Positions 2,919 through 23,161 of a stretch of 64,000 bases of DNA are shown here, in pieces. The stretch spans positions 1-64,000 of the forward strand of contig NZ_AUPZ01000001.1 in NCBI RefSeq assembly GCF_000445475.1. The letters are read 5' to 3'. The first letter of the stretch is position 1. Every line of letters begins with the position of its first letter. The DNA comes from Sulfurimonas hongkongensis. GTDB taxonomy: Bacteria > Campylobacterota > Campylobacteria > Campylobacterales > Sulfurimonadaceae. The position numbers and the translations under genes were made by a program. Under the pieces are notes generated by a model, which was given only the letters and a program-made list of their open reading frames with translations, was not told where the DNA came from and did not search any database.

Positions 2919-2975
2919 TTAGTTTTCTCTTCTTTTGCATATTCATACAAGGGTCCTTTTTTTAGATCTATTATA

Positions 2976-4511: not shown

Positions 4512-4590
4512 AACATCCTCCCTAGACAAATATTACTCTTATTTAAATATACAAAAACTTAATATCTAGAGATAGATTTTTCTTCTACTC

Positions 4591-5301
4591 CTAAGTGTGA
4601 CACTCCGTAAGTGACTTCTTAGGGTTTACTATATAGTCGTATCCGTTATAAATAGTATATGCACCATACAAAATAACCGCTATTGATGCAAGGCTCATCA
4701 TCATATTTCTAAAGCTTGTTGCACTAGTTAGCGTAGCTAAAAAGCCAAGTCCAAACATTGCAGGGATAGTGCTTAATCCAAAAATAGCCATAACTAAAGC
4801 ACCATATAGTGGGCTTGCTGTACTTGCTGCTGTGATGGCAAAAAAGTAAACAAAACCACATGGCAAAAGTCCATTTAACATCCCTAAAACAAAAAAACTA
4901 AGATTTGATTTTGAGTTTAGAACTTTTTTAAAAGCTCTTTTATAAAGTGATGATGAGGAAAAAGAGTGCTCTATAAGTGTTAAAAATTTAATTTTGCCCA
5001 TCAGAGAGAGACCCGCAAGCATCATGGCAATTCCTGCAAATATCAGCAAAGCTCCATTTGCATTGTTTGAAAAAGTCACAACCCCACCAAGGGCCCCAAA
5101 CATAGCGCCAAGAATAGAGTAGGTAAAGACTCTACCAAGCGAGTATATAAGATGTGCAAAACTTTGTGAGACTTTAGAACTCTCTGGCTCTATTTTTATA
5201 GTAGAGTAGGCAAGAACTATTCCACCACACATTCCGATGCAGTGTCCAAAGGAACCTAAAAAAGCGATACTAATAATGGTTAAAATATTTACAGTTTCCA
5301 T
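4591..5301 (-). CDS. TauE/SafE-like (DsbD_2-type) membrane protein
   Basis: A 236-residue protein with about six membrane segments and an N-terminal GHCIGMCGG motif. It belongs to the group usually annotated as sulfite exporter TauE/SafE or cytochrome-biogenesis-like DsbD_2 proteins. In many bacteria this group sits beside cbb3 oxidase assembly or copper genes and is thought to help metal delivery. Its stop-to-start gap from the upstream NosL-like gene is only 9 bp, so the two are probably co-transcribed. That pairing favours copper handling over sulfite export, but this is inference. Confidence 0.65.
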   Translation of the reverse strand: METVNILTIISIAFLGSFGHCIGMCGGIVLAYSTIKIEPESSKVSQSFAHLIYSLGRVFTYSILGAMFGALGGVVTFSNNANGALLIFAGIAMMLAGLSLMGKIKFLTLIEHSFSSSSLYKRAFKKVLNSKSNLSFFVLGMLNGLLPCGFVYFFAITAASTASPLYGALVMAIFGLSTIPAMFGLGFLATLTSATSFRNMMMSLASIAVILYGAYTIYNGYDYIVNPKKSLTECHT

Positions 5302-5310
5302 AAGCTTTAG

Positions 5311-5817
5311 TTATTTTCCTAAGAGTTTTTTTCTAATGTGAGGATTGTTAAGAGTCTCTCCTCTTAACATTCTTAGTCGCATTGTATCAAAATCTACACT
5401 ACCCTCTACTTTTTTCTCATAAGCCCCAAATCCATATCCCATAGGAGTCTCATCAGTTAGTGAGTAAAAAGCGAGCCTAGCATCTATATACTTTTTCGTA
5501 TCTCTACTCATTACCCAGATTACAGCTTCATCTTTAAATGGCTTATCTTCAAGCCACTTTACAAAACCACCATGATCATGAAAAAACCAAGTTTTTCCAC
5601 TAGGCGAGATAACTTGTGAGACATCTCTTAAGTCATCAATAACCATTCCACAATCACTATCTTGATATCTATTTACAACAAGTTTATATGGAAGTTTTTT
5701 AAAATTTTGCTCCTTTATAACTACCATCTGATTTTTAGATGCAACTAGTAGAAATACACTGACGATAAGAGCGACTAAAGTAAAAACAACTATAAAAGGG
5801 ATAAGTTTTTTTATCAT
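5311..5817 (-). CDS. NosL-like membrane-anchored protein
   Basis: A 168-residue protein with an N-terminal membrane anchor (about 6-27) and an extracytoplasmic NosL-like domain. The conserved pattern is visible: a CGMVI motif near residue 57, then a WFFHDHGG segment, then IDARLAFY and TPMGYGFGAY. NosL proteins bind Cu(I) and supply copper to nitrous oxide reductase, but NosL-like proteins also occur away from nos genes. This copy pairs with a TauE/SafE-like gene 9 bp downstream, suggesting a small copper-handling unit. It is clearly related to the NosL at 30634-31080, which has the same IDARVAFY and TPMAYGFSA blocks. Confidence 0.75.
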   Translation of the reverse strand: MIKKLIPFIVVFTLVALIVSVFLLVASKNQMVVIKEQNFKKLPYKLVVNRYQDSDCGMVIDDLRDVSQVISPSGKTWFFHDHGGFVKWLEDKPFKDEAVIWVMSRDTKKYIDARLAFYSLTDETPMGYGFGAYEKKVEGSVDFDTMRLRMLRGETLNNPHIRKKLLGK

Positions 5818-5992
5818 ATATCAAAATCTCCAAAATTGTATAAACCAAACAAATAACTAAAATTCTTTTAAAAACCAAATATAAAAATCATAAATATCTA
5901 AATAAAAACTATATATTGCATCTTTTATCTATCTAAAAATAAGGATTTGAAATTATATCAACTATGCCATGAGATAGATATTAAAATTAGCC

Positions 5993-8376: not shown

Positions 8377-8526
8377 GTTAATATCGTTTTTAAGACTCAA
8401 AAGTATTCCTTTGTTGCAACATAATTTTATAAGCTTGTAATAATATCGCATAGTTTGTTAATGTTTCATCAAACACATAGATATTTTTTGTTACAATCTT
8501 GCAAAATTATATAATTAAGGTGACAA

Positions 8527-8817
8527 ATGCAAGTAGATGATACGCTATTGAATAAACTAGAAAAATTATCTTTTTTAAAGATTTCAGAAGACAAACGTAA
8601 GGAAGTCATATCTCAGTTGTCTGAGATTGTTAGTTTTGTAGATAACTTAAATGAGTTAAATACTGATGGAGTAGATGACAGTTTTGCAATGAGCGACAGA
8701 GGAACGTATACAAGAGAAGACACTCCACTTTGCGATAAAAACATAAGCGAAGATATTCTCAAACATGCACCACAAAGTGATGATGGTTTTTTTATAGTTC
8801 CAAAGATAATAGAATAA
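8527..8817 (+). CDS. gatC: Asp/Glu-tRNA amidotransferase subunit C
   Basis: The 96-residue GatC subunit clamps GatA and GatB in the enzyme that converts misacylated Glu-tRNA(Gln) and Asp-tRNA(Asn) to the correct amides. The family pattern is clear: an N-terminal helix (LLNKLEKLSFLKIS), a central helical region with LSEIVSFVDNLNELN, and the C-terminal sequence APQSDDGFFIVPKIIE. AAGG stands 6 nt before the ATG. gatB is elsewhere in the window (47457-48881) and gatA is not present, so the subunits are scattered. pilT follows after 19 bp and may be co-transcribed. Confidence 0.93.
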   Translation: MQVDDTLLNKLEKLSFLKISEDKRKEVISQLSEIVSFVDNLNELNTDGVDDSFAMSDRGTYTREDTPLCDKNISEDILKHAPQSDDGFFIVPKIIE

Positions 8818-8836
8818 TTCAAAAAAGGAGTCTAAT

Positions 8837-9919
8837 GTGGGCGAAGAGGTAAAAAAAGTAGTAGATATTAAAAAACTTCTCAAGAGTGTTTTAGCTTATG
8901 GCTCTAGTGATTTGCATCTTGTTGTTGGAAGTGAACCCCAAATCAGGATAGATAAAGAACTTCGTCCCTTAAACTTAGCAGTTTTAAACTCAAAAGATAT
9001 AGAAGAGATGTCCTACTCGCTCATAGAAGACAAGCAGAAAAAAGTCTTTGAAGACACTAATGAGCTAGATTTCTCTTTTGAGCTAGAGAATGTTGGTCGT
9101 TTTCGTGCAAACTACTACCGTACTATAGGGGGAATTGCTTGTGCTTTTAGAATGATTCCTATAGATGTCCCAACACTTGATGAGTATGGAAATCCTCCTA
9201 TTTTTAAAGAACTTATAAAAAAAGAAAAAGGGCTTATCTTAGTCACAGGACCAACTGGTAGCGGTAAATCGACTACCTTAGCTTCAATGCTTAATGAGAT
9301 AAATCTCACTGAGCGAAGACACATCATAACCATAGAGGACCCAGTTGAGTTTGTCCATAAAAACATAAAATCTCTTTTTTCCCAAAGAGATGTAGGAAAT
9401 GACACTGCGTCCTTTGCATCGGCATTAAAATACTCTCTTAGACAAGATCCAGATGTTATTTTAATCGGAGAGATGAGAGATGCAGAGACTATTGGTGCGG
9501 CACTTACAGCAGCAGAGACTGGTCACTTGGTTTTTGCCACTCTACACACAAACTCAGCACCAGGAACAATCAACCGAATCATAGATGTTTTTGATGGTGA
9601 AGAACAAGCTCAAATAAGAGCACAGCTCTCTTCTTCTCTTGTCTCAGTAATCTCACAAACCCTTATACCAAGAGTAGGTGGAGGAAAAGTTGCAACTCAA
9701 GAGATTCTTATAGCAAACCCAGCCATACAAAACCTCATAAGAGAAGATAAAGTCCATCAATTGTACTCACAAATGCAACTAAATCAAAAAGAAAACCGTA
9801 TGACTACACAGACTCAACAACTCTTAGAGCTACTACAAAAGAAAGTTATTACAAAAGAAAATGCTATCAAAAATTCAAATAGACCAGACGAACTTATGAA
9901 GTTACTAGTAGGTTTATAA
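8837..9919 (+). CDS. pilT: PilT-type ATPase
   Basis: A 360-residue hexameric secretion ATPase of the PilT family, which powers type IV pilus retraction. Visible motifs are Walker A GPTGSGKST, the Asp box IITIEDPVEF, Walker B VILIGEMRDAET and the His box GHLVFATLHTN. The start is GTG at 8837, six nt after AAGGAG. An out-of-frame ATG overlaps it at 8835, so automatic annotation could misplace the start. No other pilus genes lie nearby. PilT and its close paralogue PilU cannot be separated securely by eye, but PilT is the better fit. Confidence 0.9.
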   Translation: MGEEVKKVVDIKKLLKSVLAYGSSDLHLVVGSEPQIRIDKELRPLNLAVLNSKDIEEMSYSLIEDKQKKVFEDTNELDFSFELENVGRFRANYYRTIGGIACAFRMIPIDVPTLDEYGNPPIFKELIKKEKGLILVTGPTGSGKSTTLASMLNEINLTERRHIITIEDPVEFVHKNIKSLFSQRDVGNDTASFASALKYSLRQDPDVILIGEMRDAETIGAALTAAETGHLVFATLHTNSAPGTINRIIDVFDGEEQAQIRAQLSSSLVSVISQTLIPRVGGGKVATQEILIANPAIQNLIREDKVHQLYSQMQLNQKENRMTTQTQQLLELLQKKVITKENAIKNSNRPDELMKLLVGL

Positions 9920-10045
9920 ACTAGATTCCGTGTCAAGCACACAATGACAATACACGCGCCATCCTAAACACTAAAGAAACATTTTTGTATAGCAAAAGAC
10001 GATTCTCTTGTTTTGATTTAGGATCCAGTTTTATATTACTTTAGA
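9918..10045. repeat. dispersed intergenic repeat, copy 2 (long form)
   Basis: This stretch matches the copy at 57.7 kb along most of its length. It opens AAACTAGATTCCGTGTCAAG. A middle block contains CTAAAGAAACATTTT and GATTCTCTTGTTTTGATT. It closes with AGGATCC and an AT-rich tail. The left hairpin is damaged here because CACGG has become CACAC. It fills most of the gap between pilT and the TonB-dependent receptor gene. Confidence 0.75.
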
Positions 10046-10175
10046 GCGCCTAATACTCACATCATATCTATTTCAGGTATATTATTCTTAAACTAAATTT
10101 AAAAAATATACTTAACATAAAATTAACACTTTAATATTATACTTCTTCTCAATTACTAAAATATGAGGAATGATA

Positions 10176-12362
10176 ATGAAAAAGAGCTTATATATCTCTT
10201 CTGTTGCTTCTATCTTGGTTGCAAGTCTTAGCGCATCAGATTTGGGAACTATACAAGTAGAATCATCTACCATTGATGATAAATTTGAGTCAAAGAGAAC
10301 AGAAGTCTCTAGTACTTCAACGATAAGTGGGGAAGCTGTTGATGAAGCACATGCTGAGAGCGTACAGCAAATTTTACAATCAATCCCGGGAGTAACAACA
10401 GAGTACTCCACTGGTGATTCTTTAAAAATTCATCTCAGGGGTGTAGAAAACCAGATGTATATGGGTGAAAAGCCGGGCGTTGCAGTTGTTATTGACGGTG
10501 TTCCCGTGTTTGAGAGAACAGGAAAGGTAAATATAGACCTTGACAACATTGAAAGCATTAAAGTTATAAAGGGCGGGGCTTCATATCTTTTTGGAGATGA
10601 TGCACTCTCTGGAGCCATTATAATAACAACAAAAAAAGGTGCAAAGTATAACAACAACTTTGGAGCAGTTGAGTTTGGTAGTTACGGCTATCAAAAAATC
10701 TTAGCAAGAAGTGGCTATGCAAATGACAACTTAAGCTTTCATATTCAAGCGAGTCAAAGAAAGGCTGATGGCTATTGGGAAGATTCAGACTATGAATCAA
10801 ACTATCTCAATGGTAAATTGCAATATTACCTTGATGATACATCAGATATCTCATTTGGATTTGAATATTCAGACAGAAAAAAAGATACTCACGGAACTGT
10901 AGGTGGTGAAACTGCAGCTAAAGAAAATCCTAAATCTGTTTATGATGGAGATCAAGATAGTAGAGACTATACAAGAGATTATGATGTAGAACTTCTTAAA
11001 CTTTTTCTTACCTATTCTAAGGATTTTAGCAATAAGTCAAATCTACTTTTAAGTGGATACATTTATAAAGATGATACATCCTTTATATCAGGACCACAAA
11101 CTAGAGATGGTAGTGGAGCTTCAGATCCTTCTCTTGATGACAGTGATTACAATTATGACAATGACTATGCACAGATACAAAGAGGAATAAAGAGCGAATA
11201 CAGAAGTTCATTTGATACATTTGCTACTATGCTGGGGCTTGATTTAAGATTTAATGAGTATGAGAACAAAACATCTTATAGGGTCAATCAGCCTTTAATA
11301 AGATACTACCCATCTTACTCTGTAACTCCAAATTACTACTTAGCTGGTGATGCAAAAAGCGACGACACAACAGATGAAAATGTTTATGCCTTTTACGGAG
11401 AATATAAACAAAAGATTACAAAAAATTTAAGTGCTACTGCTAACCTAAGGTATGATCTTATCAAACTCGACTATGAAGACTATAAAGACAATAACTTTAA
11501 AGAGGACTTTAATGTCTACTCTTACAGACTAGGAGCCAACTATAAGATAAATGAGAGCTTTGATGTTTTTGCAAACTTCTCAACAGGTTTTAGAGCACCG
11601 ACAGTTACACAACTCTACGCTGGAAGCACCAGTGCATGGGGAAGCACAGCAAACAATCCTGACCTAGACCCAGAAAAATCCTATAACTACGAAATAGGTA
11701 TTCGTACAAAAGCAAAAGGCATAACTTATGAAGCCGCGATTTTTCAGATTGACAGAAAAGACTTTATCATGAAAACATCAGGTAACTATGGAGATACGGA
11801 TACTGTAGATATGTGGGATAATGTAGGGGGTGCAAGACATAGAGGTTTAGAACTCTCTGCAATAGGCAATATTGTTAAAGAGTTATCCTTTAATCTTGCC
11901 TATACCTATCTTGATGCATACTATACAGAGTATGACAATTTTGGTATTGACTTAGACGGCAATCCTCGTACCTCGGTTGTTACATTTTTTGATGCAACAA
12001 ACAACCAAATCCCTAGAACTCCAAAGCATCAACTAAATCTTATCTTAGACTATATGCCGACAAAAGAGTTAAAGCTAACAACAGAGATAAACGCAAAGTC
12101 TAATTACTATGCGGATGATTTAAATGAGATCAAAATACCTGGACACGCTACACTTAACCTGCTAGCGAGTTATACAAATAAAATAGGTGATTATCAGTAC
12201 AACTTTTTTGCAAGAGTAGATAATCTTTTTGATAAATTTTACTACAACACAGCAAGAGCAAGCGGTGACAGAAATGAAGACGGAATATTTGACGCAGAGG
12301 ATTTATCCATCACTGTAAATTCTGGAAGAGTATTAACAGCAGGATTATCCGTTAAATTTTAA
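10176..12362 (+). CDS. TonB-dependent outer-membrane receptor
   Basis: A 728-residue gated beta-barrel that imports a scarce ligand, typically a metal chelate, across the outer membrane. It has a signal peptide (about 1-21), a plug domain (about 40-150, with QQILQSIPGV, IDGVPVF and IKGGASYLFGDDALSGAI) and a long barrel ending in an aromatic-poor LTAGLSVKF. A Ca-loop-like segment, DRNEDGIFDAED, lies near the C-terminus. The start was set at 10176 (MKKSLYIS) because AGGA stands 6 nt before it; the ATG at 10170 is too close to that site. It heads the ten-gene operon with its own ExbB, ExbD and TonB. The substrate is unknown and no Fur-type box was recognised upstream. Confidence 0.93.
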   Translation: MKKSLYISSVASILVASLSASDLGTIQVESSTIDDKFESKRTEVSSTSTISGEAVDEAHAESVQQILQSIPGVTTEYSTGDSLKIHLRGVENQMYMGEKPGVAVVIDGVPVFERTGKVNIDLDNIESIKVIKGGASYLFGDDALSGAIIITTKKGAKYNNNFGAVEFGSYGYQKILARSGYANDNLSFHIQASQRKADGYWEDSDYESNYLNGKLQYYLDDTSDISFGFEYSDRKKDTHGTVGGETAAKENPKSVYDGDQDSRDYTRDYDVELLKLFLTYSKDFSNKSNLLLSGYIYKDDTSFISGPQTRDGSGASDPSLDDSDYNYDNDYAQIQRGIKSEYRSSFDTFATMLGLDLRFNEYENKTSYRVNQPLIRYYPSYSVTPNYYLAGDAKSDDTTDENVYAFYGEYKQKITKNLSATANLRYDLIKLDYEDYKDNNFKEDFNVYSYRLGANYKINESFDVFANFSTGFRAPTVTQLYAGSTSAWGSTANNPDLDPEKSYNYEIGIRTKAKGITYEAAIFQIDRKDFIMKTSGNYGDTDTVDMWDNVGGARHRGLELSAIGNIVKELSFNLAYTYLDAYYTEYDNFGIDLDGNPRTSVVTFFDATNNQIPRTPKHQLNLILDYMPTKELKLTTEINAKSNYYADDLNEIKIPGHATLNLLASYTNKIGDYQYNFFARVDNLFDKFYYNTARASGDRNEDGIFDAEDLSITVNSGRVLTAGLSVKF

Positions 12363-12384
12363 TTACAACACATAGGTGAAAACA

Positions 12385-12828
12385 ATGAATATAGAACTAT
12401 TAAAAGATATTGTTGATTATGGAATCATTGGACTTTTAGGAGTTATGAGTTTTATGACTTTTTGGTTTTGGATCGAGAGAATTCTTTTTTTTAAAGGAGT
12501 TAATGTAAATAATTTTGAGACAAAAGAAGAACTTGAGCTTGTACTTACAAACAATGTAAATATAATCTCAACCTTTGGTTCCAATGCCCCATATATTGGA
12601 CTGCTTGGAACAGTGTTTGGAATTATTATAACCTTTTATGCTATGGGACAGAGTGATGCCTTAGATGCAAAAATGATAATGACATCTTTAGCACTTGCTC
12701 TAAAAGCTACTGCAATGGGACTTATAGTGGCTATTCCAGCTATAGTATTTTATAACCATTTAGCAAGAAAAATCGAAGTTGTATTAGCTCATTGGGACAT
12801 GAAAGAGAAGGCAAAACATGCAAATTAA
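12385..12828 (+). CDS. exbB: ExbB/TolQ-type proton channel subunit
   Basis: A 147-residue MotA/TolQ/ExbB-family protein that, with ExbD, uses the proton gradient to energise TonB. Three membrane segments are visible: about 12-30, then a pair after SNAPYIGLLGTVFG and TAMGLIVAIPAIV. It is the short ExbB form known in Campylobacterota rather than the longer enterobacterial one. The start was set at the ATG at 12385, preceded by AGGTG at 6 nt, rather than the upstream in-frame GTG at 12376. It overlaps exbD by 11 bp and lies 22 bp downstream of the receptor gene. Confidence 0.9.
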   Translation: MNIELLKDIVDYGIIGLLGVMSFMTFWFWIERILFFKGVNVNNFETKEELELVLTNNVNIISTFGSNAPYIGLLGTVFGIIITFYAMGQSDALDAKMIMTSLALALKATAMGLIVAIPAIVFYNHLARKIEVVLAHWDMKEKAKHAN

Positions 12829-13201
12829 AAAGTTTGACTCTATAAATGTAGTCCCCTTTATTGATATTATGCTTGTTCTTCTCGTCATTGTCTTAACCAC
12901 TGCTACCTTTGTTGCCAAGGGGATAATTCCGGTTGACCTTCCTACGGCAAAGACAGCAGCTCCACAAGATGATAAAAAAAATCTCACTATAACAATCAAA
13001 CAAAATGGTGATATCTTGTTTGACAAGGTAATAGTTTTAGTAGATGATGTTGCAGAAGAACTTGCAAAATATGAAGTTAAAACACCTATTCATATTAACT
13101 GTGACAAAGAAGCAAAGTTTGATCTGTTTGTCTCACTTTTAGATACCTTAGAAGAAAAAAAGTTTAAAAACCTTGGAATAATCACTAAGAAAAATAACTA
13201 A
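12818..13201 (+). CDS. exbD: ExbD/TolR-type subunit
   Basis: A 127-residue partner of ExbB with one N-terminal membrane helix and a periplasmic domain. The essential membrane Asp is present in VVPFIDIMLVLLVIVL, followed by the conserved PVDLPTAKTA segment. It overlaps exbB by 11 bp, indicating translational coupling. With the tonB gene at the operon's end it completes a dedicated energising complex for the receptor. Confidence 0.92.
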   Translation: MQIKKFDSINVVPFIDIMLVLLVIVLTTATFVAKGIIPVDLPTAKTAAPQDDKKNLTITIKQNGDILFDKVIVLVDDVAEELAKYEVKTPIHINCDKEAKFDLFVSLLDTLEEKKFKNLGIITKKNN

Positions 13202-13216
13202 AGTGAAGTGAACATT

Positions 13217-13876
13217 ATGGAATATACAGCTTTTTTTTCTATATTTATTATAGGACTCTCTTATGGAGCCACTGCATGTATGTTCTCATGTATGCCATTT
13301 CTAAGCCCCTTGCTTATAAGTAACTCTAAGAGCACAAGAGAGGCACTTAGTGTTATTTTACCTTTTAGTCTAGGTAGGATATTTAGCTATACACTTATAG
13401 CAATTGTGGCTTACTTTAGTTCTGTTTGGGTAAAGATGATGCTAAATGACAATCACATCTTTAGCATCATCTTAGGTCTTAGCACTATATCTATGGGGAT
13501 ATATCTGATGTATAAGAGCTTCAGTTCAACTAGCTCTTGCGCTCACTCTGCACCGTTAATCAAAAAACCAAAGTTAAACAGATTTGGCTTTTTTACTATT
13601 GGTGCGACTATGTCTGTAAATCCGTGTGCTCCAATCATGGCACTCTTAGCAGTAGCGGCAAATAGTAGCAGTATTTACAACTCTATAGGTCTTGGTTTGT
13701 TCTTCGGTCTTGGTGCTGTTATTTTTTCAATTATATTTTACGGTTTTATTCTCTCAACTGTAGTAAAAGGAATGATGATTGAGTTTTCCTCTTATAAACT
13801 TTTCATAGAGAGACTTGCGGCACTTCTTCTCATAATAATAGGCGTGTTAGTTTTAAACGGTGTATTAGTACTTTAA
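13217..13876 (+). CDS. CcdA/DsbD-like membrane protein
   Basis: A 219-residue protein with about six membrane segments. Two features match the CcdA/DsbD transmembrane electron carriers: a Cys pair followed by Pro (TACMFSCMPF) near the N-terminus and a second Cys in VNPCAPIMAL. Such proteins pass reducing power from cytoplasmic thioredoxin to periplasmic thiols. A TauE/SafE label is also possible, because the DsbD_2 group merges with it. In this operon it may keep periplasmic thiols or metal sites reduced, but that is inference. The ATG at 13217 was preferred to the upstream in-frame GTG at 13208. Confidence 0.65.
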   Translation: MEYTAFFSIFIIGLSYGATACMFSCMPFLSPLLISNSKSTREALSVILPFSLGRIFSYTLIAIVAYFSSVWVKMMLNDNHIFSIILGLSTISMGIYLMYKSFSSTSSCAHSAPLIKKPKLNRFGFFTIGATMSVNPCAPIMALLAVAANSSSIYNSIGLGLFFGLGAVIFSIIFYGFILSTVVKGMMIEFSSYKLFIERLAALLLIIIGVLVLNGVLVL

Positions 13877-13888
13877 CAAAGGCGAACA

Positions 13889-16279
13889 ATGGTAGATTTT
13901 ATTAAACGTGACAAAGATGATATTTATGGCAAACCAATATTAGGATTTTTATTTAAAAATCAGAAATTTTTGATGATATTAAAAATAGCAGTTTTAGCTC
14001 TATTTTTATATGCTTTATATTTTGGCTTTGCACATACTGGCAAAGATAACAACTTTACTTGGGCGGTTTTTTGGGGGATTTTCTGGTCTTTGTTTATGGT
14101 AATAACTCTACCAACATTAGGAAGAGTTTTTTGCGGCATCTGTCCTCACGGTTTTATGGGAAAATATATTACAAAACTTGGTTTAAAAAAAACTATGCCA
14201 AAATGGATGCAAAATCCATTTATTGGCATTTTTCTTATTGTTATAGGATGGTGGGGGATCTACTACATGTTTCCTGGCATCTATAGGTCACCCCTTGGGA
14301 CTGCTATTTTATTTACAGTGATGACCCTGCTCTCTTTTGTAATCTACTTTTTATATAAAGATATGAGTTACTGTAAATATATTTGCCCTATTGGGACGCT
14401 TACACGAGCCTACTCTAAACTCTCCTTTACATGGCTAGGAACTTATAAAAGCGCCTGCGATGAGTGTAAAACCTTTGAGTGTACAACGGCATGTCCATAC
14501 AACCTAAAACCATTTACCTTTAACAAACGAAACTCTATGACTGACTGTACACTTTGTATGAACTGTTCTGCTGCTTGTGAGGCAGTTAGTTTTAAAGTTA
14601 AAAAACCATCCTTTTCTCTTTTTTCAAAATTTCAAGTTCAAAAAGCTGAAGTTTGGGCATTTATCCTTATCTTGGCTTCCATCTCTATTACTATGTCTTT
14701 TCATCATGGCATCGGTCGAAGCAATGCCGCGCCTGATATGATATGGTCAAAAACAGCTGAGTTTTTCAAAGGCTTTATTAATTTTGGCTCAGTTGACCCA
14801 ATAGGCTTATTTGCCTTCCTTTATGCTCTACTCTTTACAATAGTTGCTGCTATTGCTGGTATGTTTATAGCATCTAAAATTTTACAAAAGGATTTCTCTA
14901 AAATCTTTTATAATCTTGGATACTCCTACGCTCCACTCTTTATCTTAGGTTCAATCGCTCACACTCTTGAGACACTTTTCTTGCGTGGTTATGAAAGAAT
15001 TGTAGAAGGATTAGCTCAAGGGTTTGGCTTATCTGTAGATGTGGCATCCCTAGCAAACAGAGGAGATGGTTGGCTGCATTTATTTGGCTTACTAAAGTGG
15101 GTAGCTATTGTTTGGGCTCTAATCATACTCTATAAAAGAATGAAACTTATAGATGCTATGAAGATGAGAAAGATTATTGCATATCCATTTGCAGCCTCTT
15201 TAATCATTTTCTTTTTAAGTGTTAATATCTACAGAGGATATATCCTAGATACTTATGGTAGAGCTTTAGACGGACATGCCAATCATGGCGGAGGTGCTAA
15301 AGTATTTCAAAGTGCCTCAAAAGACAGTGTTCTTAGAGATTTCAAAAAAAGACCTGCTCAAACTTATAAACAACCAACAGCCTTAAATAGCGTATATTTC
15401 TCAGAAACCAATCCATCAGCTAAAGAGGGAGAGTCTTATGGTGGACATAGACGCGGTGGGGGAAGAGGCTGGGTGCCATCACAAAAAGTTTGGCCTATCT
15501 TTGAAGATAATATAGGAGAGAAAAACTGTATAAGCCATATAGATGCCAAGCTTTATCTTCTAGATGCTAACTTAGAGACAACAAAGCTAGTTCCATCAAA
15601 AGAAGATGGCTGTAAATCAGTTAGTTATAAGATGCCAGACAATGGTTACTACAATCTATTTTATGTAGATAAAATAGTTCAAGACAATACACTATATATC
15701 AAAACTGCAAAGTTTGAAAACATGAGATTTAACCATAGTAACGATGCTATCTATGATGAGCAAAAGATGTCAGCTCATAGTATAAATGAGGCTCCTTTTG
15801 ATATTTTAAGACTTAGAGAAGATGGGGAGACTTTTTATCATCGTCTATACTCAGGCGATAAGATAAGAGTTAAAGTTTTACTAAACTCAAAGCCTATTGA
15901 AGGTGCCACGCTAAGGCTATCGACACTAACAGGTTGGTCAAAAACTCTAAAATCTGACAAAGATGGTATAGCAGTTTTCACACTTATAAAGGATTATTTC
16001 CCCGAGTGGAATAGGTTTGATAGAAGACATAAAAGCAAATTTGTTCTAACAGCAAACTATAAAGAAGATGCCAACGCTACACCTGATGGGTACGACTCTA
16101 TAAACTATGAAGCGACATATTCATCTGTTTATTATCCAGAGGAGAGTGGCTATAGCTCTTATGCTTATGGTTTAGCGGCTGCAACATTAGCTGCCATACT
16201 GTCTGGTTTTATTATCTACTTCTTTAGAAGAGGAAGAAAAAGACCATTTAAAGAGGTGCGCTTTGATGAAAAAGATTAG
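13889..16279 (+). CDS. membrane polyferredoxin with periplasmic DUF4198-like domain
   Basis: A 796-residue fusion. The N-terminal half resembles the NosR/NapH/CcoG polyferredoxins. It has membrane segments near 29-48, 57-77, 110-128 and 136-156, and Cys motifs CGICPHG (82-88) and CKYICPIG (162-169). Two cytoplasmic [4Fe-4S] sets follow, with Cys at 190, 193, 198, 202 and 220, 223, 226, 230. More helices run to about 450. Residues about 450-757 are predicted periplasmic, with a Gly/His/Arg-rich stretch (GGHRRGGGRGW) and a beta-rich part (SGDKIRVKVLLNSKPIEGA, then KSDKDGIAVFTL) like DUF4198/NikM-type domains. A last helix (758-780) anchors the end. It probably moves electrons across or along the membrane. 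The fusion is unusual and its partner is unknown. Confidence 0.8.
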   Translation: MVDFIKRDKDDIYGKPILGFLFKNQKFLMILKIAVLALFLYALYFGFAHTGKDNNFTWAVFWGIFWSLFMVITLPTLGRVFCGICPHGFMGKYITKLGLKKTMPKWMQNPFIGIFLIVIGWWGIYYMFPGIYRSPLGTAILFTVMTLLSFVIYFLYKDMSYCKYICPIGTLTRAYSKLSFTWLGTYKSACDECKTFECTTACPYNLKPFTFNKRNSMTDCTLCMNCSAACEAVSFKVKKPSFSLFSKFQVQKAEVWAFILILASISITMSFHHGIGRSNAAPDMIWSKTAEFFKGFINFGSVDPIGLFAFLYALLFTIVAAIAGMFIASKILQKDFSKIFYNLGYSYAPLFILGSIAHTLETLFLRGYERIVEGLAQGFGLSVDVASLANRGDGWLHLFGLLKWVAIVWALIILYKRMKLIDAMKMRKIIAYPFAASLIIFFLSVNIYRGYILDTYGRALDGHANHGGGAKVFQSASKDSVLRDFKKRPAQTYKQPTALNSVYFSETNPSAKEGESYGGHRRGGGRGWVPSQKVWPIFEDNIGEKNCISHIDAKLYLLDANLETTKLVPSKEDGCKSVSYKMPDNGYYNLFYVDKIVQDNTLYIKTAKFENMRFNHSNDAIYDEQKMSAHSINEAPFDILRLREDGETFYHRLYSGDKIRVKVLLNSKPIEGATLRLSTLTGWSKTLKSDKDGIAVFTLIKDYFPEWNRFDRRHKSKFVLTANYKEDANATPDGYDSINYEATYSSVYYPEESGYSSYAYGLAAATLAAILSGFIIYFFRRGRKRPFKEVRFDEKD

Positions 16280-17246
16280 AGATTTTATAAACAAGGCTGA
16301 TATCAAAAGATTTCGTTTTTGGTTACAGATTTTTTTCTTTATCATCTTTATATATGGTGGCTACTTTGCTATCAACTTAGGAACTAGCATCCCTGTCTTT
16401 TCATGTGGATATGATAAAGAAGTTGGGGGAATGTGCTACTTTTTACCTCTGCAACATCAACTAGCCCGTCCGCTAGATCTGCTCTTTAGTGTAGCTAGTA
16501 TCTCAGTTCTTATAGGCTTTATAACATTTCTGCTTTGGTTTATAGTCTTTAACAAAGCTTGGTGTGGTTACGCTTGTCCACTTGGCACTATGCAAGATTG
16601 GCTAACAGGTTTAAGAAAAAAGATGGGGGTTAGATATAGCACCTATACTCAACCGCAATTTAACAAACTCAAAAAGATAAAGTACATAATGCTAGCACTT
16701 GTAATCTTATCTCCTATGGCCGTAGGGATGGGACTGCTTGATCGTGAATGGGTAACTGCTTTTTGTAGCATCTGCCCTGGAAGGATGGTAACGCCTCTTT
16801 TTGTAGGAGATATCTCTCAATGGAGCTTAGATTTCTCAACCAAGAGTGCAATGATCCTTACTGCTTTAGGTTTAGTGTTTACTGGACTTTTTGTAGTTGG
16901 CTCATTTGTAAAAAAGAGATTTTTCTGTTTTTTTTGTCCTATGAGTGCCATGCACTATATCTTTAGTGACGCAGCCCTTTTAAGGCTTAAAAAAGATGGT
17001 GACAAATGTACAAAATGTGGCGATTGCTACACAGTTTGTGATATGCAGATAAAAGATATAGCTGATGATGTTACAAGTACAAATATTTTAAGAGATGACT
17101 GTATTTTATGTATGAAGTGTGTAGCTGCTTGTCCAGAAGAGGATGCTTTATATGTTGACTTTGTAAATTATCCAATATTCAAATCTACAAGAGGTGGATT
17201 TGCCAAAAGGATGCAAATGGACGAACTGGAGAGAACAAATGACTAA
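16266..17246 (+). CDS. NapH-like membrane ferredoxin
   Basis: A 326-residue inner-membrane iron-sulfur protein of the NapH/NosR family, which typically takes electrons from quinol or passes them between membrane and soluble carriers. Four membrane helices are interspersed with Cys motifs CGYACPLG, FCSICPGRM and CFFCPMSA. Two classical [4Fe-4S] sets follow near the C-terminus (CTKCGDCYTVC and CILCMKCVAACP). No nap genes are nearby, so NapH itself is not implied. The ATG at 16266 has GAGGTG upstream and overlaps the preceding gene by 14 bp. It was preferred to an in-frame TTG at 16263. Confidence 0.85.
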   Translation: MKKIRDFINKADIKRFRFWLQIFFFIIFIYGGYFAINLGTSIPVFSCGYDKEVGGMCYFLPLQHQLARPLDLLFSVASISVLIGFITFLLWFIVFNKAWCGYACPLGTMQDWLTGLRKKMGVRYSTYTQPQFNKLKKIKYIMLALVILSPMAVGMGLLDREWVTAFCSICPGRMVTPLFVGDISQWSLDFSTKSAMILTALGLVFTGLFVVGSFVKKRFFCFFCPMSAMHYIFSDAALLRLKKDGDKCTKCGDCYTVCDMQIKDIADDVTSTNILRDDCILCMKCVAACPEEDALYVDFVNYPIFKSTRGGFAKRMQMDELERTND

Positions 17247-18516
17247 AAATATAAGAGAACATAAGATAGAGACTCCAAAAGAGAAACAAAATCGTCATAA
17301 AGCTATGGAAGCCATTATGGTGCTTGATAAAGTCAAAAATGAGTTTAAAGAACCACCAAAAGCAATGGAGTACTTTTACAATCTTTTTGAAAGTGTACAT
17401 TGCAAACATAAGCCACTCCATAGCAACAAAGTAAAAGTTGGAACTATGTGTATCCAAGTACCTTCTGAGATTATTTACGCACTAGATGCTGTTCCTCTAA
17501 GACTATGTAATGGTTTTTATACTGATGATGAGATAGGAAGCGATCTGCTTCCATCAAAATCATGTCCTTTAGTAAAAGCAACAGTAGGGCATTTCTCATC
17601 TAATAACTTCTCAGATAAGCCAGATGTTATTATCTCTCCAACAACCTGCGATCAAAAAACAAAAGCGGGTGCCATCATAGAAGATATGGGATATAGTATT
17701 TTTGATATGGAGTTTCCAAGAACCAAAGAGAGTGAGGAGAGCCGTGAATATTGGAGACGAAGTGTTAGAAAATTCACAAAAGAGTTATCAAATGATTTGG
17801 GCAAAAAATTGACTAAAAAGAGATTAAAAGAGTCGATACAAAAAGTAGGATATGCTCAGCATCTCTACCATAAGTTAAATGTCTTAAGAAAAAATATCAA
17901 CTCTCCCATACTTGGAGTTGATATGTTTTTAGTTACCAACGCATTTTTCTTTGACAAAATAGACAACTGGATAGATGCCGTAGATAAACTTGTAAAGGAG
18001 TGCCAGCAAAGAGTAGAAGATGAGTTTAATGCTGCACATAAAAGAAGCCCTAGAATCGTCTATACAGGATCGCCACCAATCTTTCCAAATCTAAAAATCC
18101 CTCTTATTATAGAGCAATCAGATGCCATTATCGTAGCAGATGAAACATGTTCATCAAACAGAATGTTTAATGATATGGTAAGCGTAGATGAGTGGTTTGT
18201 CAACGATATGATAGATGGGGTTGCGGATAGATATTTAAAGGGGTGTACCTGTCCAATATTTACAAAAAATGAAGATAGAAAAAGAAGAATTATTGACCTT
18301 GTTAGAGAGTATAAAGCAGATGGCGTTATATATCAAGCCTTTGCAGGATGTCAGGTTTATGAGATGGAGCAGAGATCTGTTTTAGAGGCTATGGAGAGAG
18401 AGGGCATTCCTATTATGTACTTAGAGAGCGATTACTCTCCTAGTCACTTAGGTCAGCTTACAACTAGAGTTGAAGCATTTGTAGAGTCACTTAAAAATAG
18501 AAAAAGGAAACGTTAA
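17239..18516 (+). CDS. HgdB/BcrC-family protein, double-cubane type
   Basis: A 425-residue protein of the 2-hydroxyacyl-CoA dehydratase D-component family. Members either act on CoA thioesters or, in the stand-alone double-cubane cluster proteins, reduce small molecules with ATP-driven electrons. Cysteines lie at 55, 71, 90, 109, 137, 255, 304, 336, 338 and 371, several in conserved-looking settings (KSCPLVK, PTTCDQKT, ADETCSSN, FAGCQVYE). The matching activator gene follows with a 1-bp overlap. Only one dehydratase-type subunit is present, which favours a double-cubane protein over the two-subunit fermentative enzymes. The start at 17239 has GGAG 7 nt upstream and overlaps the previous gene by 8 bp. 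Substrate unknown. Confidence 0.85.
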   Translation: MTKNIREHKIETPKEKQNRHKAMEAIMVLDKVKNEFKEPPKAMEYFYNLFESVHCKHKPLHSNKVKVGTMCIQVPSEIIYALDAVPLRLCNGFYTDDEIGSDLLPSKSCPLVKATVGHFSSNNFSDKPDVIISPTTCDQKTKAGAIIEDMGYSIFDMEFPRTKESEESREYWRRSVRKFTKELSNDLGKKLTKKRLKESIQKVGYAQHLYHKLNVLRKNINSPILGVDMFLVTNAFFFDKIDNWIDAVDKLVKECQQRVEDEFNAAHKRSPRIVYTGSPPIFPNLKIPLIIEQSDAIIVADETCSSNRMFNDMVSVDEWFVNDMIDGVADRYLKGCTCPIFTKNEDRKRRIIDLVREYKADGVIYQAFAGCQVYEMEQRSVLEAMEREGIPIMYLESDYSPSHLGQLTTRVEAFVESLKNRKRKR

Positions 18517-19322
18517 TGAAATATTTTGCAGGTATAGATATAGGCTCAACAGCTATTAAAATTGCAATTGTAGATGAAAATAAAAAACTAGCAGGACATA
18601 AAATAAGTGCAAGTGGAAGTATGTTTTACAAATACGCAAAACAAGCACTAAAAGATATGCTCGGCGAGCTTGGCGTTGATGAGGACAGATTGGTTTATAC
18701 AGTCGCAACGGGCTATGGAAGAAAGCTCTTCAAAGAAGCAGATGAAAATATAAGTGAAATTACCGCAAATGCGATGGGTGCAATGGCTGCGGCCGCGTCA
18801 GAGTGCGACATTAAAACTATTATAAACATAGGTGGTCAAGATTCCAAAGCTATCTCACTTGATGATGAGGGTAATGTAGTTAACTTTGCTATGAATGACA
18901 GATGCGCGGCTGGAACTGGAAAATTTCTAGATGTTGTTGCTATGAATTTAGAGATAGAAGTTGATGAGTTAGGCGAATATCATTTCAAATCAACAGGTAC
19001 ACCGCTAGCAATAAATAGCACATGCGCAGTCTTTGCAGAGTCTGAGATAATCGGCCTTTTAGGCAATGATAACAGTGTCGAGGATATCGTAGCAGGCGTT
19101 CACTACTCTATAGCAAAAAGAATTATTAAACTTATAAAAAGAGTTGGCATAAAAGAAGGCATCTATTTTGACGGTGGTCCCGCGCTAAATATCGGCTTAG
19201 TAAGTGCAATCGAGAATGAGTTAGGTAAAAAAATATTTATTCCTGCATTTCCGCAAATAACTACATCTTTAGGTGCTGCAATACTAGCTCATGAATCTTA
19301 TGAATATGAAAACAGAGCTTAA
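18516..19322 (+). CDS. HgdC/BadF-family ATP-dependent activator
   Basis: A 268-residue ASKHA-fold ATPase that drives electrons to very low potential for its HgdB-type partner. Visible motifs are the N-terminal phosphate loop GIDIGST, NIGGQDSK, and FDGGPALN near the C-terminus. Two cysteines match the ligands of the [4Fe-4S] cluster shared at the homodimer interface: Cys130 in RCAAGTGKFL and Cys170 in NSTCAVFAESE. Its ATG overlaps the preceding stop codon (TAATG), so it is tightly coupled to the double-cubane gene. The immediate electron donor is unknown; the two polyferredoxins in the operon are the obvious candidates. Confidence 0.92.
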   Translation: MKYFAGIDIGSTAIKIAIVDENKKLAGHKISASGSMFYKYAKQALKDMLGELGVDEDRLVYTVATGYGRKLFKEADENISEITANAMGAMAAAASECDIKTIINIGGQDSKAISLDDEGNVVNFAMNDRCAAGTGKFLDVVAMNLEIEVDELGEYHFKSTGTPLAINSTCAVFAESEIIGLLGNDNSVEDIVAGVHYSIAKRIIKLIKRVGIKEGIYFDGGPALNIGLVSAIENELGKKIFIPAFPQITTSLGAAILAHESYEYENRA

Positions 19323-19352
19323 TTAGATTTATGCAAGGAAAAAGTGCAATAG

Positions 19353-22300
19353 ATGTTTAATAAAATTATAAAATTTTTTATTGAGAACTATAGAATAAAC
19401 TATACTCTATTTTTTTTAATTTTTGCAGTAGGCATCTACTCCTATACAAAAATACCAAAGGAGATATCTCCTACTATTGAACCTTCTTCTATAACTATCA
19501 GGGGCACATATCAAGGAGCTTCTGTAGATAGTTTAAATACTATGGCTGTTGGGGAAATCGAAGATGAAGTAAAAAACATTATTGGCGTAGAGAGTGTCTC
19601 TTCTGTAATAACACCGGGAAAATTCAGTATAGTTCTTGAACTTGACAAGAGAGTAGATAAAGCAACAGTTATACGCGACGTTGAAGATGCACTCTCACTT
19701 ATTAAAGTTAATCTACCGAGTGATATGGATGATCCAGTTATCAGAGGCGTTGCGCATTCAAGAAGCATCATGCATATATCGATTCAATCTTTGAGTCTTC
19801 CTAGAGAGAGATTAAAAGAGCTATCAAAAAACTTTAAAACTAAATTGCTCTCGATTAAAAATGTATCAGATGTAACTATATTTGGAAACTCAGAGCTTTT
19901 TTATGAAGTTTTGATTGATGAGAAAAAAGTCAATGCCTACAATATATCTATGAGTGAGGTTTTGCGACTTTTTTCTGAAGTCTCTTATATCTTTCCTCTT
20001 GGAAAGATAGACAATACAAATGAGCCTTACTATATATCAACACATAATGATAAAAAATTCTCTTCTGAGTTTGAAAATACCACCCTAAATATAAACAACC
20101 AACAAATTGTTTTAAAAGATATAGCTTCCATAAGTAAAAAGTACGAAGATGCATCAACTCTTGCAAGTATGGATGGAAAAAATTCCATCACACTTGCCAT
20201 ATCTCAAAATCCAAAGGGCAATGCTATTAGCATAGCAGAAGATATCAATCAACTCATATCAAAGATGAAGATTGATGATGTTGAGTTTAGCGTGAGGATG
20301 GACTCATCAACCATTATAAAAGATAGACTCAATATTGTTATCTCAAATATTTTACTTGGTGTTTTACTTATTACTCTGCTTACAGCTGTTTTAATCAATA
20401 TAAAAATGGCACTAGTGATCGCACTAGGGATTCCTACCTCTTTTGTTATTGGTGCTATCTATTTTTATCTTACAGGGCACAGCATCAATATAAATTCACT
20501 AATCGGAGTTTTAATAGCTATAGGAATTATCGTCGATGATGCCATTGTTGTGAGTGAAAATATTCAGCAATATATTGAAAAAGGCTACAGTGCAAAAGAT
20601 GCAGCATATCTGGGAACAAAAGAGGTCGCAAAACCAGTAATGATAGCCTCTTTAACTACTATATTTTCTTTTATACCTCTTTTGATGATAAGTGGAAAAT
20701 TAGGAGAGATAGTAGCGCTTATACCCATAGCTTTTAGCGCACTTGTTATCGCTTCACTTATAGAGTCCTTTATCTTTTTGCCACTTCATGCTACTCATAT
20801 TTTAGGCTCAAACTCAAAAACTCGCTCATGGAAAAAAGCAAATCTACTCTACCAAAAAGTCTTAAGTTTTCTCCTAAAACATCAAAAAAGTTTTCTGCTT
20901 ACATTTATCATCATAGTGCCTCTTTTAACCTTTTACGGAGTTCAAAAATCAAAATTTCAGATGTTTCAACCCTTTGATGACTCTTCTATAAACATTACAT
21001 TTAAAGCAGATCCCACAACTTCACTTGATGATTCTCTAAATATTGTGCAAACTTTAGAAAAAGAGATACTAAAAGAGCAGAAGAGATTTTTTGTAAAGCA
21101 TGTAAGCTCTACAGCAGGATATAGAAGAAGTGCTACAGGCACAACTGAAATCTACCCATATGTTGGATATATATCTTTAGAGCTACACAAAATGAAACCC
21201 CAAAATTTTGTAGATAAGTATATTACGCCTTACCTTAGTTTTTATTATGACAATAAAGATAGGATCAGAGATATCTCCTCGCAAAAGATTTCAAAAGATT
21301 TAAGAGTTTGGCTAAAAGAGCAGAAGTATGAAGAAAAGTTTCATCTAAATAGCCTAATGGTAGTGGAAAATAAGATGGGAAATACAAAAGCAGATATTCG
21401 CATCGGTGTCGTTAGCGATGACTATCAAAAAGCGATAAAAGCCGTTAGAACTATCGAAGATAGCTTTAGCCAAATTCAAGGCATAGAATATTTTGGTAAT
21501 AACATCAAAGTTGGTACTGATGAGATTAAACTTAAAATCAACAGTTATGGCGAGGAGCTAGGCATTACCGAAAAACTCCTAGGTAACTATATCTCAAAGC
21601 TCTATCTCTCTCTTAAGATCGCCACAATATATGATGGGCGTGAGCTTTTAGATGTAAAGATAAAATCACTCAATTTTAAAGATGATCTAGAGAGTTTTAA
21701 AAGATTGGAAATTCCTATACAAAACGACACCTATGTAAAGCTAGAGGATATCTGTGAATTTGAAAAGGTGACTGCTCTAGAGATGTTAGTCAAAGATGAT
21801 GGACATACTAGCTTTTATGTTTTTGCAAATGTTGACCCTTCTAAAACTACAGCAACAGAAGTTTTGCAAAAGATAGAACCGACAATTCAAAAATTAAAAG
21901 ACGAAGGATTGGAGTTGAGACTCAAAGGCGAGGCAGAACAAAAGAGGAGTATGCAATCGGAGATGATATTAGCATCTATTGTTGCTATGATTTTAATTTT
22001 TATCTCTATTTTATATCTTTTTGATTCCATAAGAGAGACCCTAATAGTAATGTCAGTCATTCCCTTTTCACTTCTTGGTGTATATATAGGTCATTTTATT
22101 ATGGGTTTTAATATTTCTCTTCCATCTCTCATAGGAGCCTTAGGGCTAGCAGGTGTTATCGTAAATGATGGTATTTTGATGATGGCAACGATAAAAACCG
22201 CAACAAACAAAGATGAAATTTTCACTCTTGCAGCAAGAAGATTTAGACCAATTGTACTTACTTCTGTTACTACAATTATTGGTCTTTCGTCACTAATATT

Positions 22301-22439
22301 TTTTGCGACAGCTCAAGCTGTAACATTTCAACCTTTAGCTATTGCTATTGGATTTGGACTTTTGTGGGGAACAGTACTAAACCTCTTCTACCTGCCAACA
22401 ATATACAATTTTTTACATAAATATAGGAAAAAAACATGA
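19353..22439 (+). CDS. RND-family transporter, no adaptor gene nearby
   Basis: A 1028-residue inner-membrane RND pump (AcrB fold): a first helix, a long periplasmic porter region, a membrane block, a second periplasmic region and a final membrane block. The proton-relay acidic pair is present in GIIVDDAIVVSEN. The equivalent C-terminal helix carries GLAGVIVNDGIL, the VND variety rather than the KNAIL of classical drug pumps. No membrane-fusion adaptor or outer-membrane channel gene is in the operon. It could export the carrier ligand after cargo release, as siderophore-recycling pumps do, but this is inference. It overlaps tonB by 4 bp. Confidence 0.9.
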   Translation: MFNKIIKFFIENYRINYTLFFLIFAVGIYSYTKIPKEISPTIEPSSITIRGTYQGASVDSLNTMAVGEIEDEVKNIIGVESVSSVITPGKFSIVLELDKRVDKATVIRDVEDALSLIKVNLPSDMDDPVIRGVAHSRSIMHISIQSLSLPRERLKELSKNFKTKLLSIKNVSDVTIFGNSELFYEVLIDEKKVNAYNISMSEVLRLFSEVSYIFPLGKIDNTNEPYYISTHNDKKFSSEFENTTLNINNQQIVLKDIASISKKYEDASTLASMDGKNSITLAISQNPKGNAISIAEDINQLISKMKIDDVEFSVRMDSSTIIKDRLNIVISNILLGVLLITLLTAVLINIKMALVIALGIPTSFVIGAIYFYLTGHSININSLIGVLIAIGIIVDDAIVVSENIQQYIEKGYSAKDAAYLGTKEVAKPVMIASLTTIFSFIPLLMISGKLGEIVALIPIAFSALVIASLIESFIFLPLHATHILGSNSKTRSWKKANLLYQKVLSFLLKHQKSFLLTFIIIVPLLTFYGVQKSKFQMFQPFDDSSINITFKADPTTSLDDSLNIVQTLEKEILKEQKRFFVKHVSSTAGYRRSATGTTEIYPYVGYISLELHKMKPQNFVDKYITPYLSFYYDNKDRIRDISSQKISKDLRVWLKEQKYEEKFHLNSLMVVENKMGNTKADIRIGVVSDDYQKAIKAVRTIEDSFSQIQGIEYFGNNIKVGTDEIKLKINSYGEELGITEKLLGNYISKLYLSLKIATIYDGRELLDVKIKSLNFKDDLESFKRLEIPIQNDTYVKLEDICEFEKVTALEMLVKDDGHTSFYVFANVDPSKTTATEVLQKIEPTIQKLKDEGLELRLKGEAEQKRSMQSEMILASIVAMILIFISILYLFDSIRETLIVMSVIPFSLLGVYIGHFIMGFNISLPSLIGALGLAGVIVNDGILMMATIKTATNKDEIFTLAARRFRPIVLTSVTTIIGLSSLIFFATAQAVTFQPLAIAIGFGLLWGTVLNLFYLPTIYNFLHKYRKKT

Positions 22440-23161
22440 ACAGATATGTCTCATCATTTATAATAAGCGCGCTCTCATATTTGGCAATTGTAGTTACACT
22501 AATTTATATAGTCAATATAGATACAAAAGTAAGCACAGATACTAAGGTAGAAGATGTTAGAAAAGTATGCTTTAGAGTGGTTGCTCAAGCTAAACCCCAA
22601 AAACCAAAGCAAGAGAAGATTACGCCTAAACCTAAACCTAAACCTAAACCCAAACCCAAACCCAAATCCAAGCCTAAGCCTAAGCCAGTTCCCCAGCCGA
22701 TAAAAGAGCCAATTATTGAAGAAAAAATTGTTGAAGAGACAGTCATCGAAGAGGAAGTAGTAGAGGAGACAATTGAAGAAGTACAAGAGCAAAGAGAAGA
22801 AATTGTTGAAGAGACAGCAGTAAAAGAAGAAGAAGTTTTAACAGAGAAACAACATGAAATAAATCAAGATATTCTCTTAGCAAAACAAAATAAATTTATA
22901 AACGATCTAATAAAAAGAATCAATGATAACAAATCCTATCCAAATATGGCTAGAAGAAGGGGGATAGAGGGTCTTGTGGATGTGAAATTCAAAATACTCT
23001 CAGATGGTAATGTAGAAGGAATGAAAATAGTCTCTGGAAGAAGCGTGTTTAAAAAATCAGCCTTAGAAGCGATCAGCAAAAGTTTTCCAGTTACTGTTGA
23101 AGAAGCACTATTTAACTTCCCCAAAGAGTTTAGAGTAAAACTCTCATATACTCTAAGGTGA
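22436..23161 (+). CDS. tonB: TonB energy-transducing protein
   Basis: A 241-residue TonB. It has one N-terminal membrane helix (about 8-26), a long Lys-Pro then Glu-rich spacer that spans the periplasm, and a C-terminal TonB domain. The last contains YPNMARRRGIEGLVDVKF and KSALEAISKSF and would contact the TonB box of the receptor. It closes the ten-gene operon that opens with the receptor, overlapping the RND gene by ATGA. Together with exbB and exbD it forms a complete, locus-specific energising system. Confidence 0.93.
   Translation: MNRYVSSFIISALSYLAIVVTLIYIVNIDTKVSTDTKVEDVRKVCFRVVAQAKPQKPKQEKITPKPKPKPKPKPKPKSKPKPKPVPQPIKEPIIEEKIVEETVIEEEVVEETIEEVQEQREEIVEETAVKEEEVLTEKQHEINQDILLAKQNKFINDLIKRINDNKSYPNMARRRGIEGLVDVKFKILSDGNVEGMKIVSGRSVFKKSALEAISKSFPVTVEEALFNFPKEFRVKLSYTLR
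22625..22687 (+). repeat. hexanucleotide repeat in the TonB spacer
   Basis: About ten tandem copies of a CCTAAA-type hexamer (variants CCCAAA, TCCAAG, CCTAAG) encode the Pro-Lys repeat of the TonB spacer. The first four copies are identical. Gain or loss of copies would keep the reading frame and change only spacer length. Confidence 0.9.

Follow-up and report, generated by a model that had tools for sequence, protein, structure and literature searches.

A conserved polyferredoxin and double-cubane-cluster operon linked to TonB-dependent uptake in Sulfurimonas hongkongensis, and its probable place in a copper regulon

In a 64,000-nucleotide stretch of the Sulfurimonas hongkongensis genome (contig NZ_AUPZ01000001.1, positions 1 to 64,000; referred to below as the window) we examine an operon of ten co-directional genes on the + strand at 10170-23161, which includes genes for a TonB-dependent outer-membrane receptor, two membrane polyferredoxins (PFD1 and PFD2), a double-cubane-cluster protein (DCCP) and its ATPase activator. 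PFD1, PFD2, DCCP and the activator are one conserved unit, usually with a receptor gene near it, and the operon lies behind an operator that it shares with genes we read as serving copper supply and copper enzymes. We propose that the operon provides TonB-dependent uptake within a copper regulon, with reductive release of the cargo in the periplasm by electrons that are raised with ATP and flow outward, a reading on which our confidence is evenly divided. More tentatively, and somewhat short of even chances, we suggest that DCCP acts as an ATP-driven pump in the cytoplasm, whose electrons pass outward via the polyferredoxins and free copper, or another metal, in complexes that the TonB receptor has imported.

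Sixty-nine loci emerged from a single scan of GTDB representative species genomes, and gene partners in them were called with hidden Markov models (HMMs) from the window family. PFD2 lies directly 5' of DCCP in all 66 assessable loci and a PFD1/DUF4198-type protein lies 5' of it in 59 of 59, while the activator is directly 3' in 62 of 66. A TonB receptor is nearby in 53 of 60 loci (44 of 46 in Campylobacterota and 9 of 14 in others), and the linked unit spans at least five phyla. A chance neighbourhood can be rejected on the PFD2, activator and receptor counts. The initial annotation, made from the letters of the window, had proposed that TonB uptake is linked to polyferredoxins and to a double-cubane pair driven by ATP, and had named beforehand a neighbourhood comparison in which it would fail if receptor and HgdB/HgdC genes never stood together; they do co-occur elsewhere, and the conserved unit is supported. 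Among the complete Campylobacterota loci (n=42) the RND pump is present in 16 and TonB in 20, so both are accessory, as are ExbB and ExbD; the further proposal that the pump expels the carrier as part of the system does not fit a pump so often missing. Receptors vary widely among loci, with PFD and DCCP constant, and the distribution of the module within the genus is patchy.

Some of these loci have unusual surroundings. A Campylobacterota-type module (L048) is found on a contig labelled Petrimonas (Bacteroidota), likely through a binning error or recent transfer. In an Acidobacteriota metagenome-assembled genome (MAG; L074) and a Sedimenticola MAG (L079) the DCCP modules adjoin what resembles a heavy-metal efflux operon of the czc type, His-rich proteins included, and in L068 (117-3582) and L072 proteins of 779 and 372 residues with no Pfam match lie immediately 5' of the receptor gene.

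The upstream region provides further insight into how the operon may be controlled. Ahead of the receptor gene there is a promoter-like element at 10112-10140 (+ strand), made up of the operator TTAACATAAAATTAACA (10112..10128) and a -10 element TATTAT (10135..10140); alignment of upstream regions places the first TTAACA repeat at the -35 position with a spacer of 17. The pattern TTAACA-N5-TTAACA, with at most one mismatch, precedes 36 of 44 operons starting with a receptor or DsbD_2 gene, against 0.25 expected, the 44 including a few non-Campylobacterota loci, none of which has the operator. The repeat is enriched at spacing 5 and at no other spacing. Sites of OmpR/PhoB-family activators are characteristically direct repeats of 11-bp period placed at -35, and we therefore predict that this tandem repeat is the site of a response regulator of that family. 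A response regulator and histidine kinase pair of the class that adjoins the operator is also encoded close to the DCCP operon in eight loci, and in one locus (L263) the response regulator gene is divergent from the DCCP operon with the operator between them. Identification of the regulator by co-occurrence of CrdR-like response regulators was not discriminating, as related regulators are present in all 50 genomes tested. At three places (G294, G295 and G185) operators on opposite strands stand back to back, a few to about 13 bp apart, between probably divergent modules.

The operator is shared with a distinctive set of genes. The pattern TTAACANNNNATTAACA occurs twice in the Sulfurimonas hongkongensis genome, before the window operon and about 60 bp before the gene of an OprC-type receptor, and over 59 genomes it gives 124 matches against 19 for the reversed control. 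This co-regulated receptor (L185 1436-3400, contig C7), encoded away from the operon, matches TIGR01778 and solved OprC and keeps the GACPNRM motif; OprC binds copper via CxxxM-HxM (PMC7558416). Forty regions around operator sites were read, and by our own sorting about 32 of 43 sites fall among the gene groups that follow. The operator stands before OprC-type receptors in five loci besides Sulfurimonas hongkongensis, before NosL genes at five sites (some with FtsX/ABC genes), before a DsbD_2 gene followed by a cbb3 catalytic gene, before four membrane c-type-cytochrome genes of two families, and before the CrdR-like response regulator and histidine kinase pair itself. It is also found beside nosZ, in three further genomes at a distance of about 245 bp upstream of where the nosZ match starts and in its orientation, and it adjoins genes for cbb3 subunit I, TonB/ExbB and other TonB receptors (one with PepSY); in L035 NosL and a second DsbD_2 gene adjoin the DCCP operon. 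From these gene identities we read the set as a copper-supply and copper-enzyme regulon whose signal could be copper, oxygen or a nitrogen oxide, and because the operator is common to copper-uptake and copper-enzyme genes, the operon is probably one for copper scavenging.

Fur was considered as the regulator and rejected. Upstream of 58 operons the best match to a Fur box averages 11.4 of 19, against 11.3 expected from shuffles, which is no enrichment, whereas most feoA/feoB upstream regions of related genomes, the positive control, score 14-15 of 19 (Mann-Whitney p 0.001). Iron control of the Fur type is thus not supported, and regulation points instead to the copper regulon.

Two groups of genes under the operator merit mention in their own right. 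Long NosL genes with an FtsX-like permease and an ABC ATPase form operons in L225, L230, L249 and L253, which are probable copper delivery systems. The membrane cytochromes are two-gene families near the operator with a C-terminal c-type domain (L234 1224-3937, L239 1270-3986, L240 327-2873 and L254 1418-3958); the two that were scanned have no other Pfam match, and they are possibly an undescribed oxidoreductase pair.

The HgdB-type protein of the window (17239..18516, +; PF06050, 1.7e-95) has the 2-hydroxyacyl-CoA dehydratase/HgdB fold, and its start is ATG 17239 and not GTG 17194 by comparison with orthologues. It scores 345.4 bits over the full length against the NF040772 double-cubane family, below the cut-off of 350, and its best solved relative by phmmer is DCCP (7yyl/6eno, E about 1e-62). 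Seven cysteines (C86, C105, C124, C152, C319, C353 and C386) align with cysteines of 7yyl/6eno and are at least 90% conserved among 65 homologues. By these comparisons it is a double-cubane-cluster protein, with the cluster and ATP-dependent reduction predicted. The adjoining HgdC-type ATPase activator (268 aa, 18516..19322, +; TIGR00241, 231 bits, cut-off 125) matches 4eht, 1hux and 7yyl_E and conserves the predicted cluster ligands C130 and C170. Among 397 Campylobacterota genomes drawn, DCCP matches are bimodal, with 27 genomes above 690 bits, corresponding to the window clade, and the rest below 255 bits; in two low-scoring cases inspected (L023 and L024) an activator adjoins and there are no polyferredoxins beside. 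A tree separates module DCCPs from stand-alone DCCPs with full support, only three stand-alone sequences being included; together with the nearest named loci it puts the window in, or next to, Sulfurimonas. To our knowledge the double-cubane proteins have no identified natural substrate, and Jeoung and Dobbek are said to have found in 2018 that DCCP reduces small molecules in vitro in an ATP-dependent manner.

The same genome has a second module (L003, C4:53000-72000, 8427-14308), with a DCCP 70% identical to that of the window, TonB receptor(s), a separate DUF4198-type protein, a polyferredoxin and DsbD_2, and no activator gene beside them. It also has an operator, TTAATATAAAATTAACA, upstream with one mismatch.

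Four loci (L265, L266, L267 and L045, the last at 524-5878) contain a sister module composed of a receptor, a DUF4198-like protein, a PFD2-like polyferredoxin and DsbD_2, with no DCCP or activator beside it. Three of the carriers are genomes with no match of the window DCCP clade, and the fourth is a Sulfuricurvum that has both modules (L045), facing each other and each with its own operator; the operator is present at three of the four sister modules. Sister receptors are 52-63% identical to the window receptor and the PFD2-like proteins 34-36% identical to PFD2, that of L267 having been found by a separate search as its frame is overlapped by another. The DUF4198-like proteins (263-272 residues) are assigned by position together with weak HMM scores of 11-27 bits. 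Because the sister module does without DCCP and activator, these two look like an add-on that feeds electrons to a receptor and polyferredoxin core.

PFD1 (13889..16279, +; PF12801) combines a NapH/CcoG-like polyferredoxin with a C-terminal periplasmic DUF4198/Zcp-type domain, assigned by fold match, and a final transmembrane helix. Two forms occur across the clade: fusions of about 770-920 residues, and cases in which the DUF4198 part is a protein of its own, with about 300-420 residues and one C-terminal helix. For the window PFD1 the sequence match to Pfam DUF4198 is weak (E 0.0086), but of 20 short homologues 15 reach PF10670 with an E of 0.01 or lower. A sequence profile of the DUF4198 part against the PDB gave no relevant match, and Zcp and DUF4198 structures were found by fold search alone. 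In an AlphaFold2 model (mean predicted local distance difference test score 69; residues 530-750 mostly 70-93) the domain at about 497-750 is a beta-sandwich that matches Zcp 9mhj (Z 18.4) and DUF4198 9gcb (Z 15.9) over 187-201 residues; the Zcp structures carry Zn, Cu or Co and the DUF4198 structure carries Ni, and the next fold reaches only Z 6.6. On this model the DUF4198/Zcp fold of the C-terminal domain is established. The Zcp metal ligands are H29, H31 and H142; PFD1 has no histidine close to 508-510, and its H616 is invariant in 26 rows. The modelled layout, a Fer4_5 membrane polyferredoxin with a C-terminal immunoglobulin (Ig)-like periplasmic domain, is like that of CcoG, although the CcoG/FixG family model is absent from the Pfam/NCBIfam matches of PFD1 and from the listed matches of PFD2.

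PFD2 (16266..17246, +; PF12801, PF13237) is a NapH-like polyferredoxin that conserves, among 70 homologues, eight cysteines for two predicted [4Fe-4S] clusters, three membrane CxxC(P)/CxxxCP motifs and the C48/C58 pair. The membrane protein of 222 aa at 13208..13876 (+), labelled CcdA/DsbD-like at first, is present as described, with its family corrected to Pfam DsbD_2 (PF13386, 2.2e-20); its CxxxCxP (C24, C28) and later CAP (C140) motifs are conserved in 56 homologues.

The receptor (730 aa, 10170..12362, +) has barrel and plug domains (PF00593, 1.4e-51; PF07715, 9.2e-19) and scores 216.9 bits against the siderophore subfamily TIGR01783, under the cut-off of 223.5. Receptor family was dropped as a guide to cargo, since 40 receptors match siderophore, haem and B12 models simultaneously. 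The remaining genes encode ExbB (150 aa, 12376..12828, +; TIGR02805 exbB2, 174 bits, cut-off 135, equivalog passed), ExbD (127 aa, 12818..13201, +; PF02472, 7.6e-24), the RND permease (1028 aa, 19353..22439, +; PF00873, 1.5e-132) and TonB (241 aa, 22436..23161, +; PF03544, 8.9e-14). The order is thus receptor, ExbB, ExbD, DsbD_2 protein, PFD1, PFD2, DCCP, activator, RND permease and TonB, with successive gaps of 13, -11, 6, 12, -17, about -8, -1, 30 and -4 bp when DCCP starts at ATG 17239, and the initial description of ten genes on one strand with gaps of 30 bp or less is borne out. A consensus scan of the + strand inside the operon found no convincing terminator, an Rfam scan of the window no riboswitch or other known RNA, and Pfam and NCBIfam no PepSY, DUF2271 or ApbE in the operon.

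We propose the following model. The receptor would import a metal complex, probably of copper, into the periplasm, where the DUF4198/Zcp-type domain may receive or position the metal or the complex. In the cytoplasm electrons from a ferredoxin-like donor would be brought to a lower potential by the activator with ATP and loaded onto DCCP, which would hand them to PFD2. The two CcoG/NapH-like polyferredoxins, aided by the thiol chemistry of DsbD_2, would move them outward across the inner membrane, so that the proposed chain runs from donor through activator and ATP, DCCP, PFD2 and PFD1 to the complex at the DUF4198 domain, which would be reduced in the periplasm with release of the metal. We infer the outward direction from the CcoG layout and DUF4198 part together with a cytoplasmic ATP-driven double-cubane pair. 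DCCP would then be an optional booster of the electron source and not an enzyme acting on the imported compound, and a CrdR-like OmpR-type response regulator would control the operon via TTAACA-N5-TTAACA, along with OprC-type receptors, NosL, nosZ and oxidase genes.

Several points weigh against this model. A very low potential is not required to take Cu(II) to Cu(I), and copper as cargo leaves the cost in ATP unexplained; speculative answers are copper-sulfur species that hold the metal tightly in sulfidic water, or a chelator that is itself reduced. The copper role is a prediction from genomic context. The operator is seen in Campylobacterota only, and related response regulators occur in genomes both with and without the module, which leaves the CrdR-like regulator a candidate. 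The N-terminal H-x-H of Zcp (H29/H31) has no evident counterpart in PFD1, where residues 503-510 read YFSETNPS. The nearest receptor models are of siderophore, haem and B12 types, none above its cut-off for the window receptor, and the association of nosZ with the module is weak (14 of 27 module genomes against 113 of 370, p 0.03), a strict link between module and N2O reductase being rejected on that count.

Copper is favoured by the regulation, whereas the receptor class and the need for a low potential would favour iron. In an anaerobic iron version, which we consider unlikely though credible, a ferric siderophore would be imported and reduced in the periplasm as by FpvG or PepSY-DUF2271-DUF4198-ApbE systems, with ATP-driven electrons reaching the potential of tight ferric chelates, which is very low. 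The siderophore score of the window receptor, close under its cut-off, agrees with this, as does the presence of FeoB in 15 of 15 genomes tested, and DUF4198 genes elsewhere are part of PepSY iron clusters under Fur control, which in some cases include TonB receptors (PMC3751524, PMC8238504). Against iron stand the shuffle-level Fur scores and an operator common to copper receptors and copper chaperones.

The direction first suggested for the window, in which an imported organic compound or chelate enters the cytoplasm and is reduced by DCCP with electrons supplied by the polyferredoxins, would account for the operon linkage and for the in vitro activity mentioned above. We judge it improbable, as the conserved core contains no ABC or other inner-membrane importer, the sister module has the same receptor type without DCCP, and receptors are diverse where PFD and DCCP are constant. 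A metal chelate remains a sensible cargo, but its reduction by DCCP itself is not supported; the sister module and the missing importer make it more likely that DCCP feeds the polyferredoxins and the periplasm. Cuproenzyme maintenance is a further alternative, with the regulon serving N2O or oxygen respiration, the module giving low-potential electrons for reductive activation or assembly of copper centres in a NosR-like manner, and the receptor bringing copper. The operator beside nosZ and cbb3 genes and the resemblance of the polyferredoxins to NapH/NosR speak for it, yet 13 of the 27 genomes with the module lack a nosZ match and most module loci have their own TonB receptor, and we think it highly improbable.

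If periplasmic release driven from the cytoplasm is correct, the operon may give the double-cubane reductase a natural job, extend periplasmic metal-release chemistry beyond flavin/PepSY systems, and suggest a copper route in sulfidic, copper-poor water for N2O reductase and cbb3 oxidase. The conserved genomic setting makes a role for double-cubane proteins testable, namely that they supply a membrane metal reductase with electrons raised by ATP, and would bear on what DUF4198 proteins do and on the function of the Ig-like domain in reductases of the CcoG type. The analysis further defines a Campylobacterota operator and regulon, of which our literature search, with most subscription papers outside it, found no earlier description. 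That search likewise found nothing that joins 2-hydroxyacyl-CoA dehydratase or double-cubane proteins with TonB, or ferric siderophores with polyferredoxins, and, judged by titles and abstracts, nothing relevant on double-cubane proteins, copper and uptake together; the initial statement that no system of this form is described agrees with it.

One close likeness is to DCCP and DCCP-R of Carboxydothermus (6eno, 7yyl), the same pair in the same order with seven shared cysteines and the same ATPase activator family. The module DCCP is about 30% identical to the compared stand-alone DCCPs of the phylum and forms a separate clade, and it differs further in its linkage to polyferredoxins, DUF4198, DsbD_2 and a TonB receptor. 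In CcoG, a bacterial cupric reductase of the polyferredoxin type, the role of the C-terminal Ig-like domain is unknown, and the likeness to CcoG/RdxA/FixG lies in the membrane polyferredoxin with such a periplasmic domain and in the copper context (PMC7558416); the operon differs in having no CcoG family match, a DUF4198/Zcp-type Ig-like part, two polyferredoxins, an ATP-driven electron source and a TonB link. OprC/NosA copper receptor regulons share the operator in the same and related genomes, although the operon's own receptor is not of OprC type. PepSY-DUF2271-DUF4198-ApbE systems are implicated in iron reduction (PMC8238504, PMC3751524), and FpvG reduces ferri-pyoverdine in the periplasm with recycling by efflux (PMC6954188). 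These and FpvG/FpvH resemble the operon in the periplasmic metal reduction proposed for it, a DUF4198 protein, in some cases a TonB receptor and, for FpvG, efflux recycling (PMC8238504, PMC6954188), but the operon has no PepSY, DUF2271 or ApbE, an iron-sulfur chain in place of flavin, no Fur-type control and a DCCP/ATP source. The parts and the principle of TonB import with periplasmic reduction are already known, whereas the proposed electron source and the combination are not.

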